DNA of 64,000 nucleotides from assembly GCF_002005225.1 (NCBI RefSeq), contig NZ_CP019724.1:6093501-6157500 (forward strand), given 5' to 3'. A model generated the notes under the pieces. It saw only the letters and a list, made by a program, of their open reading frames with translations, did not search any database and was not told where the DNA came from. The translations under genes were made by a program, and so were the position numbers. This DNA is from Streptomyces pactum (lineage in GTDB: Bacteria > Actinomycetota > Actinomycetes > Streptomycetales > Streptomycetaceae). Shown piece after piece: positions 13,156 through 22,665 of the stretch. The stretch's first letter is position 1. Each line of letters opens with the position of its first letter.

Positions 13156-14025
13156 TCAGGTCTTCGTACGGAACTTGTGGATGGCGACCGGCGCCATCAC
13201 CGCCGTGATCGCCACCGACCAGCCGAGCGTCATCCACAGGTCGTGCGCGACCGGGCCGCCGACCATCAGTCCGCGCGCCGCGTCGGCGAGCGTGGACAGC
13301 GGGTTGTAGTCGGTGAAGGCCTGCAGCCAGCCCGGCATCGACTGCGGCGGGGCGAAGATGGACGAGCCGAACTGGAGCGGGAACAGCACCATGAATCCCA
13401 TCCCCTGCACGGCCTGGGCGTTCTTCAGGATCACGCCCAGGGTGAGGAACACCCACATGATCGACGAGGCGAACACCGCGGACAGGGCGACCGCCGCGAA
13501 CAGACCGGCCCAGTTCCGGATGTCGAAGCCGACCAGGACGGCGACGACCATCAGCACCGTCGTCGCGAACAGCATCCGCAGCATCTCCACCGAGATCTTC
13601 GCGAAGAGCACGGAGCCGCGCCCGATCGGCAGGGACCGGAAGCGGTCCATGACACCGGAGTTGAAGTCCTGGCTGAACCCGGTGCCGACACCCTGGGACA
13701 GCGTCATGCTCATCATCGCGATCATGCCGGGGATCACGTACTGCACATAGCCGTCCTGGCCGCCGCCCAGGGCCTGGCCGATCGAACCGCCGAAGACGTA
13801 CACGAACAGCAGGGTGAAGACGACCGGCATCAGCAGGGCGTCGAACATCGACTCCGGGTCCTGCCGGATCCACAGCAGGTTGCGGCGGACCAGGGCACCG
13901 GTGTGCCGGACATGTCCGCGCGGCGAGATCCGGGCGTCGGCACGGGGAGCGGGGGGCACGGTGACCGAAGGGGCGGCGCGAAGCGCCTCAGGCGGGGTGG
14001 TGGTGGGAGACGGGCGGGCGCTCAT
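13156..14025 (-). CDS. ABC-2 type (DrrB-like) transporter permease
   Basis: The 289-residue membrane protein has about six hydrophobic segments typical of ABC-2 permeases, for example LLMPVVFTLLFVYVFGG, LFATTVLMVVAVLVGFDI and LSAVFASSIMWVFLTLGVIL. The N-terminal 45 residues are cytoplasmic and Pro/Ala-rich. Its ATG (14023-14025) overlaps the stop of the upstream ATPase gene as ATGA, indicating translational coupling and a two-component exporter of the daunorubicin-resistance type. The substrate is unknown. It converges on the AfsR-like gene. Confidence 0.9.
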   Translation of the reverse strand: MSARPSPTTTPPEALRAAPSVTVPPAPRADARISPRGHVRHTGALVRRNLLWIRQDPESMFDALLMPVVFTLLFVYVFGGSIGQALGGGQDGYVQYVIPGMIAMMSMTLSQGVGTGFSQDFNSGVMDRFRSLPIGRGSVLFAKISVEMLRMLFATTVLMVVAVLVGFDIRNWAGLFAAVALSAVFASSIMWVFLTLGVILKNAQAVQGMGFMVLFPLQFGSSIFAPPQSMPGWLQAFTDYNPLSTLADAARGLMVGGPVAHDLWMTLGWSVAITAVMAPVAIHKFRTKT

Positions 14026-15050
14026 ACGGCGTCCTCCTCACGGGCGTCGGCGGGCGCGGAGTCCTGCGGGGCACTGGCGCGGTGGCCGGTGAGGGACAGG
14101 AAGACCTCGTCCAGGCTGGGCAGTTCGGTGGTGACGGAGGCGACCGTGATGCCGCGCGCGGTGACCGCGCCGACCACGGCGGTGAGCTGCTCGTCGCTGA
14201 GGATCGGCACCAGGACGTCACCGCGCCGCGCGTCCACCGTGGAGTTGGCGAGCCCGGTGATGCCCAGCTCGTCCAGGTAGGCGGCGAGCGGGCGCAGTTG
14301 GAGCGGGTCGGCCGGGCGGACGCGCAGGGTGCGGCCGCCGACCTTGGCCTTCAGCTCCTCGATGCCGCCGTTCGCGATGACCTTGCCGCGGTCGACGACG
14401 GTCAGCTCGGCGGCGAGCTGCTCGGCCTCCTCCATGTACTGGGTGGTCAGCAGCACGGTGACACCGTCGCCGACCATGCGCTTGACCTCGTCCCACACCT
14501 CGTTGCGGGTGCGCGGGTCCAGGCCGGTGGTGGGTTCGTCCAGGTAGAGGACGGCCGGGTGCCCGATCATGGAGGCGGCCAGGTCGAGCCGGCGCCGCAT
14601 GCCGCCCGAGTAGGTGGCCGCGGGCCGCTTGCCGGCCTCGGTGAGCGAGAACCGCTCGAGCAGTTGGTCGGCCCGGGTACGGGCGTTGCTGCGGGACAGG
14701 TCGAGCAGGCGCCCGATCATGTACAGGTTCTCCCAGCCGGGGAGCTTCTCGTCCACGGACGCGTACTGCCCGGTGAGCCCTATCACCCGCCGGAGCTGCC
14801 GCGGCTGCCGGACGACGTCGTAGCCGGCGACGTGCGCCTGGCCGGCGTCGGGCGTGACGAGGGTGGACAGGATGCGGACGAGGGTGGTCTTGCCGGCCCC
14901 GTTCGGCCCGAGCACGCCCATCACGGTGCCCTCGCGCACATCCAGGTCGACGCCGTCCAGCGCCTTGGTCTCGCCGTAGTGCTTGACCAGCCCCCGTACG
15001 GTGACCGCGCTGCCCGCGGCGGTCGGGGGGTTGCCGTCGATTCGCTTCAT
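14022..15050 (-). CDS. DrrA-like ABC transporter ATP-binding protein
   Basis: Starting at ATG 15050 (MKRIDGNPPTAAG) it encodes 342 residues. Walker A is VLGPNGAGKTTLVRIL near residue 50, the signature motif is YSGGMRRRLDLAASM, and Walker B with D-loop is LYLDEPTTGLDPRTR. The C-terminal region is the extension found in DrrA-type exporters. It energises export by the adjacent permease. The open frame extends upstream across a 31-bp repeat array, but the family start and loss of similarity argue for 15050. Expression may be controlled by that array. Substrate unknown; drug or lipid export are the usual roles. Confidence 0.92.
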   Translation of the reverse strand: MKRIDGNPPTAAGSAVTVRGLVKHYGETKALDGVDLDVREGTVMGVLGPNGAGKTTLVRILSTLVTPDAGQAHVAGYDVVRQPRQLRRVIGLTGQYASVDEKLPGWENLYMIGRLLDLSRSNARTRADQLLERFSLTEAGKRPAATYSGGMRRRLDLAASMIGHPAVLYLDEPTTGLDPRTRNEVWDEVKRMVGDGVTVLLTTQYMEEAEQLAAELTVVDRGKVIANGGIEELKAKVGGRTLRVRPADPLQLRPLAAYLDELGITGLANSTVDARRGDVLVPILSDEQLTAVVGAVTARGITVASVTTELPSLDEVFLSLTGHRASAPQDSAPADAREEDAV

Positions 15051-15080
15051 GCCGACGACGTTGTCAGCCCGCACCGACAA

Positions 15081-15224
15081 ACGACCGACATCCCGCCGAC
15101 AGCCGTCCGGTACGACCGACATCCCACCGACAGCCGTCCGGGTACGACCGACATCCCGCCGACAGCCGTCCGGTACGACCGACACCCCGCCGACAGCCGT
15201 CCGCCGCGACCGGCGTCCCGCCGA
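15081..15224. repeat. 31-bp direct-repeat array upstream of the ABC exporter
   Basis: Copies of a unit beginning ACGACCGACATCCCGCCGAC start at 15081, 15112, 15144 and 15175, with a diverged copy at 15206 (period 31, 32, 31, 31). On the minus strand each copy reads TGTCGGCGGGATGTCGG, itself a TGTCGG direct repeat spaced 11 bp. The array ends about 30 bp upstream of the exporter start, which is promoter position, and follows the panB terminator. Confidence 0.85.
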
Positions 15225-15275
15225 CGGGGATGTCGGCGCGGGCCGCGGGACGGACCGCCGGGCCGCCGCACATAC

Positions 15276-15315
15276 CACCGGCCCCGCCGACGGGGGAAGA
15301 TCGGCGGGGCCGGTG
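15276..15315 (-). terminator. panB hairpin terminator
   Basis: CACCGGCCCCGCCGA pairs perfectly with TCGGCGGGGCCGGTG (15-bp stem, 10-nt loop). It lies 18 bp downstream of the panB stop and isolates panB from the repeat array and exporter operon. Confidence 0.85.
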
Positions 15316-19239: not shown

Positions 19240-19508
19240 ACGTTCTCCGTAAGTTGTTGGGCGGCCCGGGAGGGCCGGGCCACTGTAGTGGAGCGGGGAT
19301 CCGGAGACGTCGCCCCCTCCGGCGCCCACCGTCGCGTCGTACCCGGCACCGCGGCGCCCTGCTGTGGACCCACGCCGAGCCGGCCATGACCTCGCGGCTG
19401 GCCCATCACTCGTTGGCGTGCGCGGAGTCCCGTTTCCCGTCCACGGGCACAGGGCGCCCTCTACCGTGTGGCCCCTCGCGATACGACGCGTACGGCGAAG
19501 GGATGCGG

Positions 19509-20362
19509 ATGTCGTTGAACGGCGGGACGGAAGAGCCGGGTTGGGAGGTCGACCCGGACGACGAGTGGGGTGTGGCCGTCCTCACCACCGTGGGGAGGCA
19601 GTTGAAGCTGCGGCGCGAGACGGTGGGGATGCGGGCGGCCGAGTTCGGTACGGCGGTGGGCTACGGGGAGGACCTGGTCTACAAGGTCGAGGGCGGGAAG
19701 CGGATTCCGCGGCGGGAGTACCTGGAGCGGGCCGACGAGGTGCTGGGGGCGGGTGGGCTGCTGACGGCGATGTGGGAGGACGTCGCGAGGGTCCGGTACC
19801 CGAAGCGCGTCCGGGAACTGGCGAAGCTGGAGGCCGGTGCGGTCGAGATCGGGTTGTAAGCACCCACAACGTCCACGGTCTGCTGCAGACCGAGGCTCAC
19901 ATGCGCGCGTTGTTCGATGCGTGGCTGCCCGCCTACACGGAGGAGGAGACCGAACGCATGGTTGCCGCGCGGCTGGCCCGCCGCTCGGTCTTCGAGCGGT
20001 CGCCGGCACCGACCCTCAGTTTCGTCCAGGAGGAAGCGACGCTCCGCCGACCGGTCGGGGGCAGAATGGTGTGGCGCAGGCAGCTCGAACGTCTGTTGGA
20101 GCTGGGGGAGTTGCGGCACGTGTCGATTCAGGTGATGCCGACCGACTGTGAGGAGCACGTCGGAACGGGCGGGCTGGTCGAGGTGCTCAAGTTCCCCGAC
20201 GGCACAGCGGTGGGGCGTTCCGAGGGGGCGTTCGCCGGGCGGCCGGTGACCGATCCGAAGCAGCTCAGAATCCTTGAACTGCGCTATGGCATGATCCGGG
20301 CCCAGGCTCTCACGCCCCGAGAGTCGCGGGCCGTCATCGAGCAGATGCTTGGAGAGTCATGA
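19509..20362 (+). pseudogene. XRE-family regulator (DUF5753 type), frameshifted
   Basis: Residues 1-116 (SLNGGTEEPGW to AGAVEIGL) carry the XRE helix-turn-helix (VGRQLKLRRETVGMRAAEFG) and stop at TAA 19857-19859. The expected continuation STHNVHGLLQTEAHMRALFD, the DUF5753 ligand/regulatory domain, follows at once in another frame and runs to 20362. Homologs normally read EIGLYSTHNVHGL here, so one base is missing around 19857-19860. No slippery heptamer is visible, so a mutation or a sequencing error is likelier than programmed frameshifting. GAAGGG at 19497-19502 supports ATG 19509. The stop overlaps the DUF397 gene start (ATGA), the usual pair arrangement. Confidence 0.8.
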
Positions 20363-20568
20363 TCCGCATCCCCGCAACCCCGGACGCTCCCGCCCTGGCG
20401 TGGTTCAGGAGCAGCTACAGCAGCAGCGGAGACGGCAACGACTGCGTCGAGGTCGCGATAACCCCCGCCATCGTCCGCGTCCGCGACTCCAAGCGTCCCC
20501 GGCGCGCCCGCCTCGCCGTCACGCGGGCGGCGTGGTCGGCGTTCGTGGCCGACGCCCGGCACGGGTGA
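20359..20568 (+). CDS. DUF397 small protein, partner of the XRE regulator
   Basis: The 69-residue product has the DUF397 hallmarks WFRSSYSSSGDGNDCVEVA, VRVRDSKRP and AWSAFVADARHG. Such proteins pair with XRE/DUF5753 regulators in streptomycetes, and some pairs influence development and antibiotic production; they are thought to act as partner/antagonist of the regulator. The ATG overlaps the last codon of the frameshifted XRE gene, so translation was probably coupled. With the XRE reading frame broken this partner may now be an orphan. A terminator begins at its stop codon. Confidence 0.9.
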   Translation: MIRIPATPDAPALAWFRSSYSSSGDGNDCVEVAITPAIVRVRDSKRPRRARLAVTRAAWSAFVADARHG

Positions 20569-20594
20569 GCCCCGGACGCGACGGTCCGGGGCTC
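20567..20594. terminator. bidirectional hairpin terminator
   Basis: GAGCCCCGGA pairs with TCCGGGGCTC (10-bp stem, 8-nt loop). It starts within the DUF397 stop codon and lies 22 bp beyond the stop of the convergent peptide gene. Confidence 0.7.
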
Positions 20595-20616
20595 GGGCAC
20601 GTTACGGTCGCGCGCC

Positions 20617-20850
20617 TCAGACCATGGTCGTGTGCGCGTGGCCCTGCGCCGCGGTGCCGCCGAGGGTCGCCGAGGCGCCCAGACCGGCGGTGACGGAGAG
20701 CGGGCCGGCCTCCGTGTGGAGGCCGCCACCGACGGCGCTGCCGGCGGTCACGACGGCCGTACCGGCGTCGACGCCGATGTTGCCGCCGGACACCTGGTCC
20801 AGGTCCGCGTCGGAGATTTCAGCCGTTTCGACCTGGGGGACGAGGTTCAT
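20617..20850 (-). CDS. double-glycine-leader peptide, candidate bacteriocin/RiPP-like precursor
   Basis: The 77-residue product starts at ATG 20850 behind the strong ribosome-binding site AAAGGAAAG. Residues 12-23 read ISDADLDQVSGG, matching the double-glycine leader pattern of class II bacteriocins and related peptides (hydrophobic-S-x-x-acidic-L-x-x-V-x-G-G). Cleavage after Gly23 would release a 54-residue core, NIGVDAGTAVVTAG onward, rich in Gly, Ala, Thr and Val, with VTAG occurring twice and a His-containing tail GHAHTTMV. There is no cysteine, so lanthionines are excluded. No C39-peptidase transporter, modification enzyme or immunity gene is recognisable nearby. The function is inferred from the leader only. 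Confidence 0.7.
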   Translation of the reverse strand: MNLVPQVETAEISDADLDQVSGGNIGVDAGTAVVTAGSAVGGGLHTEAGPLSVTAGLGASATLGGTAAQGHAHTTMV

Positions 20851-21233
20851 GACAGGTCTTTCCTTTCGTGCGAACGAAATGGGAGCGGTGAGACACGCAC
20901 ACGGATCCGGAGTTGGGGGGGTCCGGAACCGATCACCGGCGTGCCGCGCACCGATCAAAGCACGCTGGTGAACGGCCGACCATCCGCGCGCTGTCGGAGG
21001 TCGGCTCCCGGCGTCCGCACGTCCATCAGTGTGCGAATGCGGTCAGGGAAAAAGCCCGCGTCTTCACGCTACCCACCAGTAAGGGAGTCCTCCCGGGGCC
21101 GCCACGCGCGCGGTCGGCCCGGTCTGCCTCCACTCCGCCCTCTCCGTGCGACCGTGCGATGAACAGTGTGCGGGTCCGAGGGATTTTCGGGGCCGGTTCC
21201 CGGCCGGATCCCGGCTCAGGGGGAGTAACACGC
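20851..21233. other. intergenic region upstream of the peptide gene
   Basis: Between the glnA2 terminator and the peptide gene lies nearly 400 bp without a convincing open frame. It should contain the peptide gene promoter. A run CTTTTTCCCTGACC on the minus strand and a TAGCGT hexamer upstream of it are the only AT-leaning stretches; neither makes a clear -10/-35 pair. Confidence 0.4.
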
Positions 21234-21269
21234 GAGGGGGCCGGCAGTCGGTCGACCGCCGGCCCCCTC
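21234..21269 (-). terminator. glnA2 hairpin terminator
   Basis: GAGGGGGCCGGC pairs with GCCGGCCCCCTC (12-bp perfect stem, 12-nt loop), 34 bp downstream of the glutamine-synthetase-like gene stop. Confidence 0.8.
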
Positions 21270-21303
21270 GGCCACGACGGCGGGACGCGCCCGCCGGCCG
21301 TCT

Positions 21304-22665
21304 TCACAGCACCGGCAGCGACTTCCGCAGCTCGAACGCCGTCACCTGGGAGCGGTACTCCTCCCACTCCTGGCGCTTGTTGCGCAGGAAGAAGTCGAAG
21401 ACGTGCTCGCCGAGGGTCTCGGCGACCAGGTCGCTGCGTTCCATCAGGGCGAGGGCCTCGCCGAGGTTCTGGGGGAGGGGCTCGATGCCCAGCGCGCGGC
21501 GTTCCGAGTCGGACAGGGCCCAGACGTCGTCCTCGGCGCCCGGCGGGAGTTCGTAACCCTCCTCGATGCCCTTGAGGCCGGCGGCCAGGAGGACGGCGTA
21601 GGTCAGGTACGGGTTGGCGCCGGAGTCGATGGAGCGGACCTCGACGCGGGCCGAGCCGGTCTTGCCGGGCTTGTACATGGGGACGCGGACCAGGGCCGAG
21701 CGGTTGTTGTGGCCCCAGCAGATGTAGGACGGGGCCTCGCCGCCGGCGCCGGCGGTGCGCTCGCTGCCGCCCCAGATGCGCTTGTAGCTGTTCACCCACT
21801 GGTTGGTGACCGCCGAGATCTCCGCCGCGTGCCGCAGCAGGCCCGCGATGAAGGAGCGGCCGACCTTGGAGAGCTGGTACTCGGCGCCGGACTCGTAGAA
21901 GGCGTTGCGGTCGCCCTCGAAGAGGGACAGGTGCGAGTGCATGCCCGAGCCGGGGTACTCCGAGAAGGGCTTCGGCATGAAGGTGGCCTGGAGGCCCTGC
22001 TCCAGTGCGACCTGCTTCATGACCAGGCGGAACGTCATGATGTTGTCGGCCGTGGAGAGCGCGTCCGCGTAGCGCAGGTCGATCTCCTGCTGGCCCGGGG
22101 CGCCCTCGTGGTGGGAGAACTCCACCGAGATGCCCATCGACTCCAGCATCGTGATGGCCTGGCGGCGGAAGTCCATGCCGATGTTCTGCGGGGTGTGGTC
22201 GAAGTAGCCGGAGTTGTCGGCGGGGGTGGGGACCGTGCCGTCGACGGGCTTGTCCTTCAGCAGGAAGAACTCGATCTCCGGGTGGGTGTAGAAGGTGAAG
22301 CCGAGGTCCGAGGTGCGGGCCAGGGCGCGCTTGAGGACGTAGCGCGGGTCGGCGAAGGACGGGGAGCCGTCCGGCATCAGGATGTCGCAGAACATGCGGG
22401 CCGTACCGGGGGCCTCCGCGCGCCAGGGCAGGACCTGGAAGGTCGACGGGTCCGGCTTGGCGATCATGTCCGACTCGTAGACCCGGGCGAAGCCCTCGAT
22501 CGCGGAGCCGTCGAAACCGATGCCCTCGTCGAAGGCCTGCTCCAGCTCGGCCGGGGCCACGGCGACGGACTTGAGGAAGCCCAGTACGTCCGTGAACCAC
22601 AGGCGTACGAACCGGATGTCGCGCTCCTCCAGCGTCCGGATCACGAACTCCTGCTGCTTGTCCAT
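21304..22665 (-). CDS. glnA2: glutamine synthetase-like protein (GlnA2, probable gamma-glutamylpolyamine synthetase)
   Basis: From ATG 22665 (MDKQQEFVIRTLEERDIRFV) it encodes 453 residues; an ATG 15 bp upstream has a poorly spaced ribosome-binding site. GS type I signatures are GFDGSAIEGFARVYESDM, PEIEFFLL, HHEGAPGQQEID and the glycine/His motif FSEYPGSGMHSHLSLF. The region RVEVRSIDSGANPYL replaces the usual catalytic RFPDPSANPY wording, and no NLYDL-type adenylylation tyrosine motif is seen near the C-terminus, so GlnE control is unlikely. By position and sequence it corresponds to GlnA2 of S. coelicolor, described as a gamma-glutamylpolyamine synthetase in polyamine use. It is divergent from the DUF3105 gene. 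Confidence 0.85.
   Translation of the reverse strand: MDKQQEFVIRTLEERDIRFVRLWFTDVLGFLKSVAVAPAELEQAFDEGIGFDGSAIEGFARVYESDMIAKPDPSTFQVLPWRAEAPGTARMFCDILMPDGSPSFADPRYVLKRALARTSDLGFTFYTHPEIEFFLLKDKPVDGTVPTPADNSGYFDHTPQNIGMDFRRQAITMLESMGISVEFSHHEGAPGQQEIDLRYADALSTADNIMTFRLVMKQVALEQGLQATFMPKPFSEYPGSGMHSHLSLFEGDRNAFYESGAEYQLSKVGRSFIAGLLRHAAEISAVTNQWVNSYKRIWGGSERTAGAGGEAPSYICWGHNNRSALVRVPMYKPGKTGSARVEVRSIDSGANPYLTYAVLLAAGLKGIEEGYELPPGAEDDVWALSDSERRALGIEPLPQNLGEALALMERSDLVAETLGEHVFDFFLRNKRQEWEEYRSQVTAFELRKSLPVL

Follow-up and report, generated by a model that had tools for sequence, protein, structure and literature searches.

A double-glycine precursor of Streptomyces pactum and its probable export in trans by a distant C39 exporter

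Among the described systems in which peptides with a double-glycine (GG) leader are handled by C39 peptidase exporters, the NHLM/NHLP system stands closest to the locus discussed here. In the accessible part of PMC2887384, Haft et al. (2010) described the exporter families TIGR03794, TIGR03796 and TIGR03797, and argued that conservation of the leader tracks the exporter. The Streptomyces system shares with it, as far as that text goes, the three exporter protein families and precursors with a GG leader. It differs in that the Streptomyces precursors have no match to the NHLP or Nif11 leader models of NCBIfam (none at E ≤ 1 for the gene under study, none at E ≤ 0.01 for the precursor linked to the exporter), in that no tailoring enzyme recurs, and in that the precursors encoded apart from the exporter, the orphans, share a promoter-like element with it. 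For pneumococcus, the available text of PMC7018657 reports that transporter choice is dictated by the signal sequence alone, and it notes orphan GG peptides; as presented there, the orphan peptides of the streptococcal ComAB/BlpAB/RtgAB systems are encoded apart from the exporter and chosen by signal sequence, as is proposed below for Streptomyces, whereas exporter type and organism are different and the near-unique shared DNA element is a Streptomyces feature.

MAM of Faecalibacterium has been proposed, in the portion of PMC12184118 that is accessible, to be a surface protein exported by a C39 exporter. It resembles the present case in its GG leader, the co-occurring C39 exporter and the proposed cell-surface product, but its sequence is different and its exporter gene is described there as nearby. 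Within the genus, a 'type A2 lantipeptide' gene has been placed in a Peptidase_C39 region of one Streptomyces genome (PMC13047742, accessible part). Orphan LanT exporters, whose peptides are possibly encoded elsewhere, are treated in the available section of PMC3951391. Database entries named 'type A2 lantipeptide' belong to the same family as the gene under study, the name standing on many exporter-linked and on some orphan homologues, but the exporter-linked cores lack cysteine (51/51). For this genus, in which secreted products have been sought intensively, a literature search that lay mostly outside subscription papers found no paper on an arrangement of hub exporter and orphan precursors or on its promoter.

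The precursor gene and its leader

The window, i.e. the whole stretch of 64,000 nucleotides of S. pactum DNA that was analysed, contains on its minus strand (20850-20617; C1:6,114,117 on the genome) a gene of 77 codons with an ATG start. A purine-rich ribosome-binding site, GAAAGGAAAG, precedes it at 20858..20867 (minus), and a similar purine stretch is found upstream of relatives. Residues 1-23 form the leader MNLVPQVETAEISDADLDQVSGG (20782..20850, minus), with a predicted cut after the GG; residues 24-77, together with the stop codon, occupy 20617..20781 (minus) and give a core of 54 residues, NIGVDAG...HTTMV, with 0 Cys, 0 Lys and 0 Arg. In the leader, the segment ISDADLDQVSGG (residues 12-23) holds the hydrophobic residues V20, L17 and I12 at about -4, -7 and -12 and G22G23 at -2/-1, which is the pattern of C39 substrates.

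Homologues of the protein number 73 at E ≤ 0.01, from Streptomyces wherever the listing names a source organism. In an alignment of 37 of them, picked by hand, the GG is invariant (37/37), as are S13, D14 and L17, while much of the core varies. Pooled over six syntenic orthologues, dN/dS amounts to 0.24 in the leader and 0.63 in the core, so that the protein is under purifying selection, the leader more strongly than the core; a chance open reading frame is ruled out by the homologues, the invariant GG and these ratios. A leader profile (A2) built from 33 diverse leaders, in which 5 of 23 positions are invariant and the GG and L17 hold in these 33 as in the 37 homologues, matches the window gene with 61 bits (E 1.4e-15, own-genome search). 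Two strong matches to this profile occur in the 8.55 Mb genome, the window gene and the exporter-linked precursor described below, the next match standing at E 0.44. A class-wide search of 296 genomes found the leader in 22, all in one genus among 114.

The preliminary description, drawn from the letters of the window, had proposed a real 77-residue gene with a ribosome-binding site, a double-glycine leader at residues 12-23 and a Cys-free, non-lanthipeptide core of 54 residues starting NIGVDAG, and all of this is borne out for the window protein. It had also asked for a search for homologues with a conserved leader and a variable core, naming a leader without conservation or a lost GG as the opposite outcomes; leader and GG proved conserved and the core variable, and neither opposite outcome was seen among the 37 aligned homologues.

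A known peptide family was considered for the window gene and set aside, as Pfam and NCBIfam returned no match over any cut-off. The AlphaFold2 model, in which three strands are predicted for the core, is weak (pLDDT 56, pTM 0.30) and hence too poor for a fold search. As a separate observation, synonymous divergence between the window gene and five orthologues is lower in the leader (20782-20850; pS 0.09) than in the core (pS 0.20), which perhaps reflects gene conversion from leader to leader or a constraint at the DNA or RNA level, the region being so short that chance could also account for it.

The distant C39 exporter and its co-occurrence with the leader

The genome of S. pactum (8,550,793 bp, one contig) holds a sole C39 peptidase match at E ≤ 0.01. 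It lies outside the window, at C1:725,428-725,826, in an NHLM-type exporter operon (C1:724,210-730,387) that is, by coordinates, ≈ 5.4 Mb distant from the window gene. The genes stand in an operon-like order, with a 71-residue precursor (C1:724,210), which is a paralogue of the window gene with a matching leader, followed by an HlyD-like protein, a peptidase-ABC protein and a second ABC protein. The peptidase-ABC protein scores 1026 bits against TIGR03796, above the cut-off of 853, and the second ABC protein 907 bits against TIGR03797, above that of 709; the HlyD-like protein reaches 142.9 bits against TIGR03794, below the cut-off of 156.2, yet this is the best family for the protein. The C39 domain aligns to 6mpz, a double-glycine protease of solved structure (E 1.6e-40), and the columns of the catalytic Cys, His and Asp are matched.

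Across the genus, the exporter-linked peptide is mostly 66-94% identical to the copy in S. pactum, with 49% as the lowest value. Inspected by eye, the exporter-linked core (L032:10210-10425), which begins LSVNAV, resembles an internal near-duplication, GTVTGLVDGIAPVSGLV and GTVEGVTGLNTAPVTGLV. In 50 exporter loci the HlyD-like gene was found in 50 and the ABC genes in 49, and no further neighbour family was near-universal, the next one occurring in 37. That family, whose S. pactum member is trypsin-like, is represented at L032:8275-9591 (minus) by a gene for a trypsin/alpha-lytic-type protease, divergent from the exporter-linked precursor; the protease might process exported peptides.

Closer to the precursor, the exporter at 13156-15278 of the window was considered and rejected as a peptidase exporter: it is DrrA/DrrB-like, and no peptidase family stands among the listed matches of its two proteins (for one of them, the best 25 of 196). 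The preliminary description had found no peptidase domain in this nearest exporter and no transporter-peptidase anywhere in the window, and both statements hold, the only C39 match of the genome lying elsewhere. Its suggestion of an uncharacterised peptide family with processing enzymes encoded at a distance is likewise upheld by the conserved leader and GG, by the sole C39 domain standing beside a paralogous precursor, by a common upstream element and by the distribution of leader and exporter among genomes.

This distribution was surveyed in 151 Streptomyces genomes (minimum completeness 95; leader at E ≤ 1e-4, exporter over cut-off). The leader was present in 104 genomes and the exporter in 112, with both in 104, the leader alone in 0, the exporter alone in 8 and neither in 39, so that all 104 leader-positive genomes carry the exporter; these counts disregard relatedness, and many leader matches are linked to the exporter by position. 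The listed leader matches number 150; the exporter is no more than 6 kb away from 94 of them, and the other 56 are unlinked. The unlinked matches sit in 47 genomes, every one exporter-positive (47/47), and the chance of drawing zero exporter-negative genomes, again computed without regard to relatedness, is 3e-8 for the 47, or 4e-7 when the 41 with an additional linked match are taken. Six genomes have unlinked matches only; one of them (G148) does possess a linked precursor, whose leader has diverged, and contig breaks perhaps explain some of the cases.

Six of the eight exporter-only genomes were inspected; in the other two, G028 and G139, the exporter gene begins no more than 200 bases from the end of its contig. 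Five of the six have an exporter-linked GG precursor with an MRNDIETREI-like leader and a variant of the upstream element, and two further genomes with weak leader matches only (G070, G083) resemble these five; in the sixth, G062, neither a GG precursor nor a variant element was found. A clade of exporter operons (L168-L172, L174, L175) has the diverged leader MR/DN..ETREI.D.ELDA(V/I)SGG along with variant elements such as GTGCTTTCATC.

The shared upstream element and the scattered orphans

The window gene and the exporter-linked precursor are preceded by the same architecture, TGGnnG - 17/18 nt - TTTGAT, the second box lying within the conserved 12-mer CGTGCTTTGATC. In the window, the 12-mer is located at 20953..20964 (minus) with its -10-like TTTGAT at 20959-20954, and the -35-like box TGGTCG at 20977..20982 (minus) stands 17 nt before TTTGAT. 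The 12-mer has 2 exact sites in 8.55 Mb, as has the 11-mer GTGCTTTGATC (reversed control 0), which begins 113 nt ahead of the window gene's ATG and 138 nt ahead of the start codon of the exporter-linked precursor, distances being counted from its first base. With at most one mismatch, the 11-mer occurs upstream of 46/46 orphans and 47/51 exporter-linked precursors, compared with 10 of 4,850 dinucleotide shuffles, and the remaining 4/51 upstream regions have 2-3 mismatches. Its distance to the ATG is 58-143 nt for orphans and 82-167 nt for exporter-linked precursors.

Throughout the 151 genomes, the exact 12-mer has 108 sites (reversed control 5), and 97 of these precede a GG precursor: 96 stand upstream of a listed leader, accounting for 96 of the 150 listed matches, and 1 upstream of an exporter-linked precursor whose leader has diverged. 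For the remaining 11 the gene calls show no GG precursor, 6 of these sites lying in exporter-positive and 5 in exporter-negative genomes. In two genomes (G160, G144) the 12-mer, set in similar local sequence, precedes genes other than GG precursors (L143, L144), possibly by chance or as another member of the regulon. The genome of S. pactum has four sites that differ from the 12-mer at one base (reversed control one), and the gene calls place a GG precursor downstream of none. At one of them, CGTACTTTGATC (L162, G000:C1:2624313), inspected by eye, TTGACG stands 18 nt before TTTGAT and an ftsY-like gene follows, a hint that TTTGAT is able to serve as a -10 box.

A spacing of 17-18 nt is that of a sigma-70 family promoter. 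Among 95 upstream sequences, 91 have the TGG 17-18 nt ahead of TTTGAT, compared with 5-35 that have it at one of four shifted positions. A scan of 20300-21320 for the sigma-70 consensus returned no promoter, and the element was recognised by comparison alone. We infer from these comparisons that the shared element is a promoter, presumably read by some factor. Twelve exactly conserved bases would seem to exceed the needs of an ordinary -10 box, which lends something to the alternative that the 12-mer is an operator or an RNA element of the 5' leader, under which export in trans would still hold. This alternative is nevertheless unlikely, given the near-constant spacing of the second box, an element-to-ATG distance that varies from 58 to 167 nt, and the variants GTGCTTTCATC, GTGCTTACATC and GTGCTTATATC of members with diverged leaders, which retain the -10-like core. 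A known RNA element was also rejected, as Rfam gave no match at E ≤ 1 within the 3 kb surrounding either 11-mer site.

At least 8 flanking contexts can be told apart among the 46 orphan loci, the element (at most one mismatch) being present in each, and no neighbour gene is common to all. Two contexts predominate, the glnA neighbourhood of the window gene, with which one locus (L039) was pooled solely through shared gene families, and a locus where a Tad-like gene is accompanied by a prepilin peptidase, families that were tested in one representative (L033) and extended to the others by clustering. Core types cross contexts, as seen in L062, a Tad-like locus whose window-like core is 71% identical. 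The Tad-pilus-like hotspot comprises 24 loci, including L033, L062, L064, L065 and L067, and a small gene on the opposite strand is frequent there (cluster C11; no Pfam match in L033).

Convergent to the window orphan lies a regulator-type pair, HTH/DUF5753 and DUF397 (window 19364-20568), and DUF5753/DUF397-like genes also flank orphans of the Tad context (L068, L079, L081). As functional partners they were discarded, with 24 DUF5753 matches in the genome and only part of the orphans adjoined by such genes. Two equal-scoring DUF5753 matches are placed as mirror images with respect to the contig ends (G000:C1:24943-25476 and 8525318-8525851), which suggests a linear chromosome with long terminal inverted repeats.

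Proposed route of export and role of the cores

Judged from sequence, the window gene most probably encodes a double-glycine precursor that is co-expressed with the single C39 exporter of the genome and processed by it in trans. A factor would read TGGnnG - 17/18 nt - TTTGAT in CGTGCTTTGATC, the near-unique element that both loci share, and would, provided that the element acts as a promoter, switch on exporter and orphan together. The C39 domain, which looks intact, would recognise the common leader, conserved and co-occurring with the exporter, and would cut after GG23. The peptidase-ABC, second ABC and HlyD-like proteins would then export the core of 54 residues, probably unmodified. The best reading at the level of the genus is a Streptomyces peptide-export regulon, in which a hub exporter with its conserved linked peptide would also serve, in trans, dispersed orphans with variable Gly/Ala-rich cores.

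The cores are hydrophobic. Lys and Arg make up 0.7% of residues in orphans (none in 29/46) and 0.04% in exporter-linked cores (none in 50/51), the mean core charge being -2.5 and -2.4, respectively. Composition and conservation point, if weakly, to a role at the cell surface: tentatively, the mature window peptide may be a hydrophobic peptide that acts at or near the surface of its own producer, and on the same tentative footing the exporter-linked peptide may be the conserved product to which orphans add strain-specific cores. A ranking of roles, itself weakly founded, places this surface peptide before a bacteriocin and a bacteriocin before a signal.

C39 exporters often serve bacteriocins, and the exporter families met with here bear bacteriocin names. 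An unmodified bacteriocin directed against close relatives and using the same export machinery, the variable orphan cores in at least 8 contexts and the glnA and Tad-like hotspots then reflecting competition, is accordingly conceivable, though we consider it the lesser prospect. The near-absence of Lys and Arg is a mild argument against a classical cationic bacteriocin; moreover, the exporter-linked peptide is well conserved genus-wide, unlike a fast-changing bacteriocin, and no neighbour that might confer immunity is shared by all orphan contexts.

A role as a secreted signal that the strain's other cells sense, with feedback through the shared promoter, seems doubtful. Core lengths of about 48-54 residues exceed what is usual for a signal and count against it, and the exporter loci have no near-universal receptor or two-component gene; the dedicated shared element speaks for it, as do the GG peptides that signal in other bacteria according to the accessible text of PMC7018657.

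That the product is a lanthipeptide or another modified peptide, as the name 'type A2 lantipeptide' of relatives would have it, is highly improbable. Besides that name, given by the sources, LanC-like matches elsewhere in the genome, among them two strong ones, and Cys in 12/46 orphan cores could be cited in its favour, but the window core and 51/51 exporter-linked cores are free of Cys, so that the name is unsupported, and after the near-universal HlyD-like and ABC genes the most frequent neighbour family of the 50 exporter loci is a protease.

Equally remote is the view that leader and element are left over, in decay, from a duplicated exporter-linked gene and that the orphan is not exported. 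The parts shared by the two loci are indeed leader and element, and constraint on the core is weaker (dN/dS 0.63), but purifying selection on the core persists, 73 homologues exist and the element is kept in every examined orphan context.

Returning to the peptide-export regulon, it may be carried one step further, although here we would lean to the sceptical side: throughout the genus, a dedicated transcription or sigma factor reading TGGnnG - 17/18 - TTTGAT (CGTGCTTTGATC) as a near-unique extended promoter would bring about joint expression of the hub NHLM exporter, its conserved, hydrophobic and Lys/Arg-free peptide and the dispersed strain-specific orphans, in the service of surface or signalling functions and not of killing. 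Apart from this further step, the analysis assigns a probable exporter and a shared regulatory signature to scattered Streptomyces peptides that are now unannotated or doubtfully labelled lantipeptide; export in trans and co-expression can both be tested by single gene deletions. The 12-mer offers a cheap means of finding new members, those with diverged leaders included.
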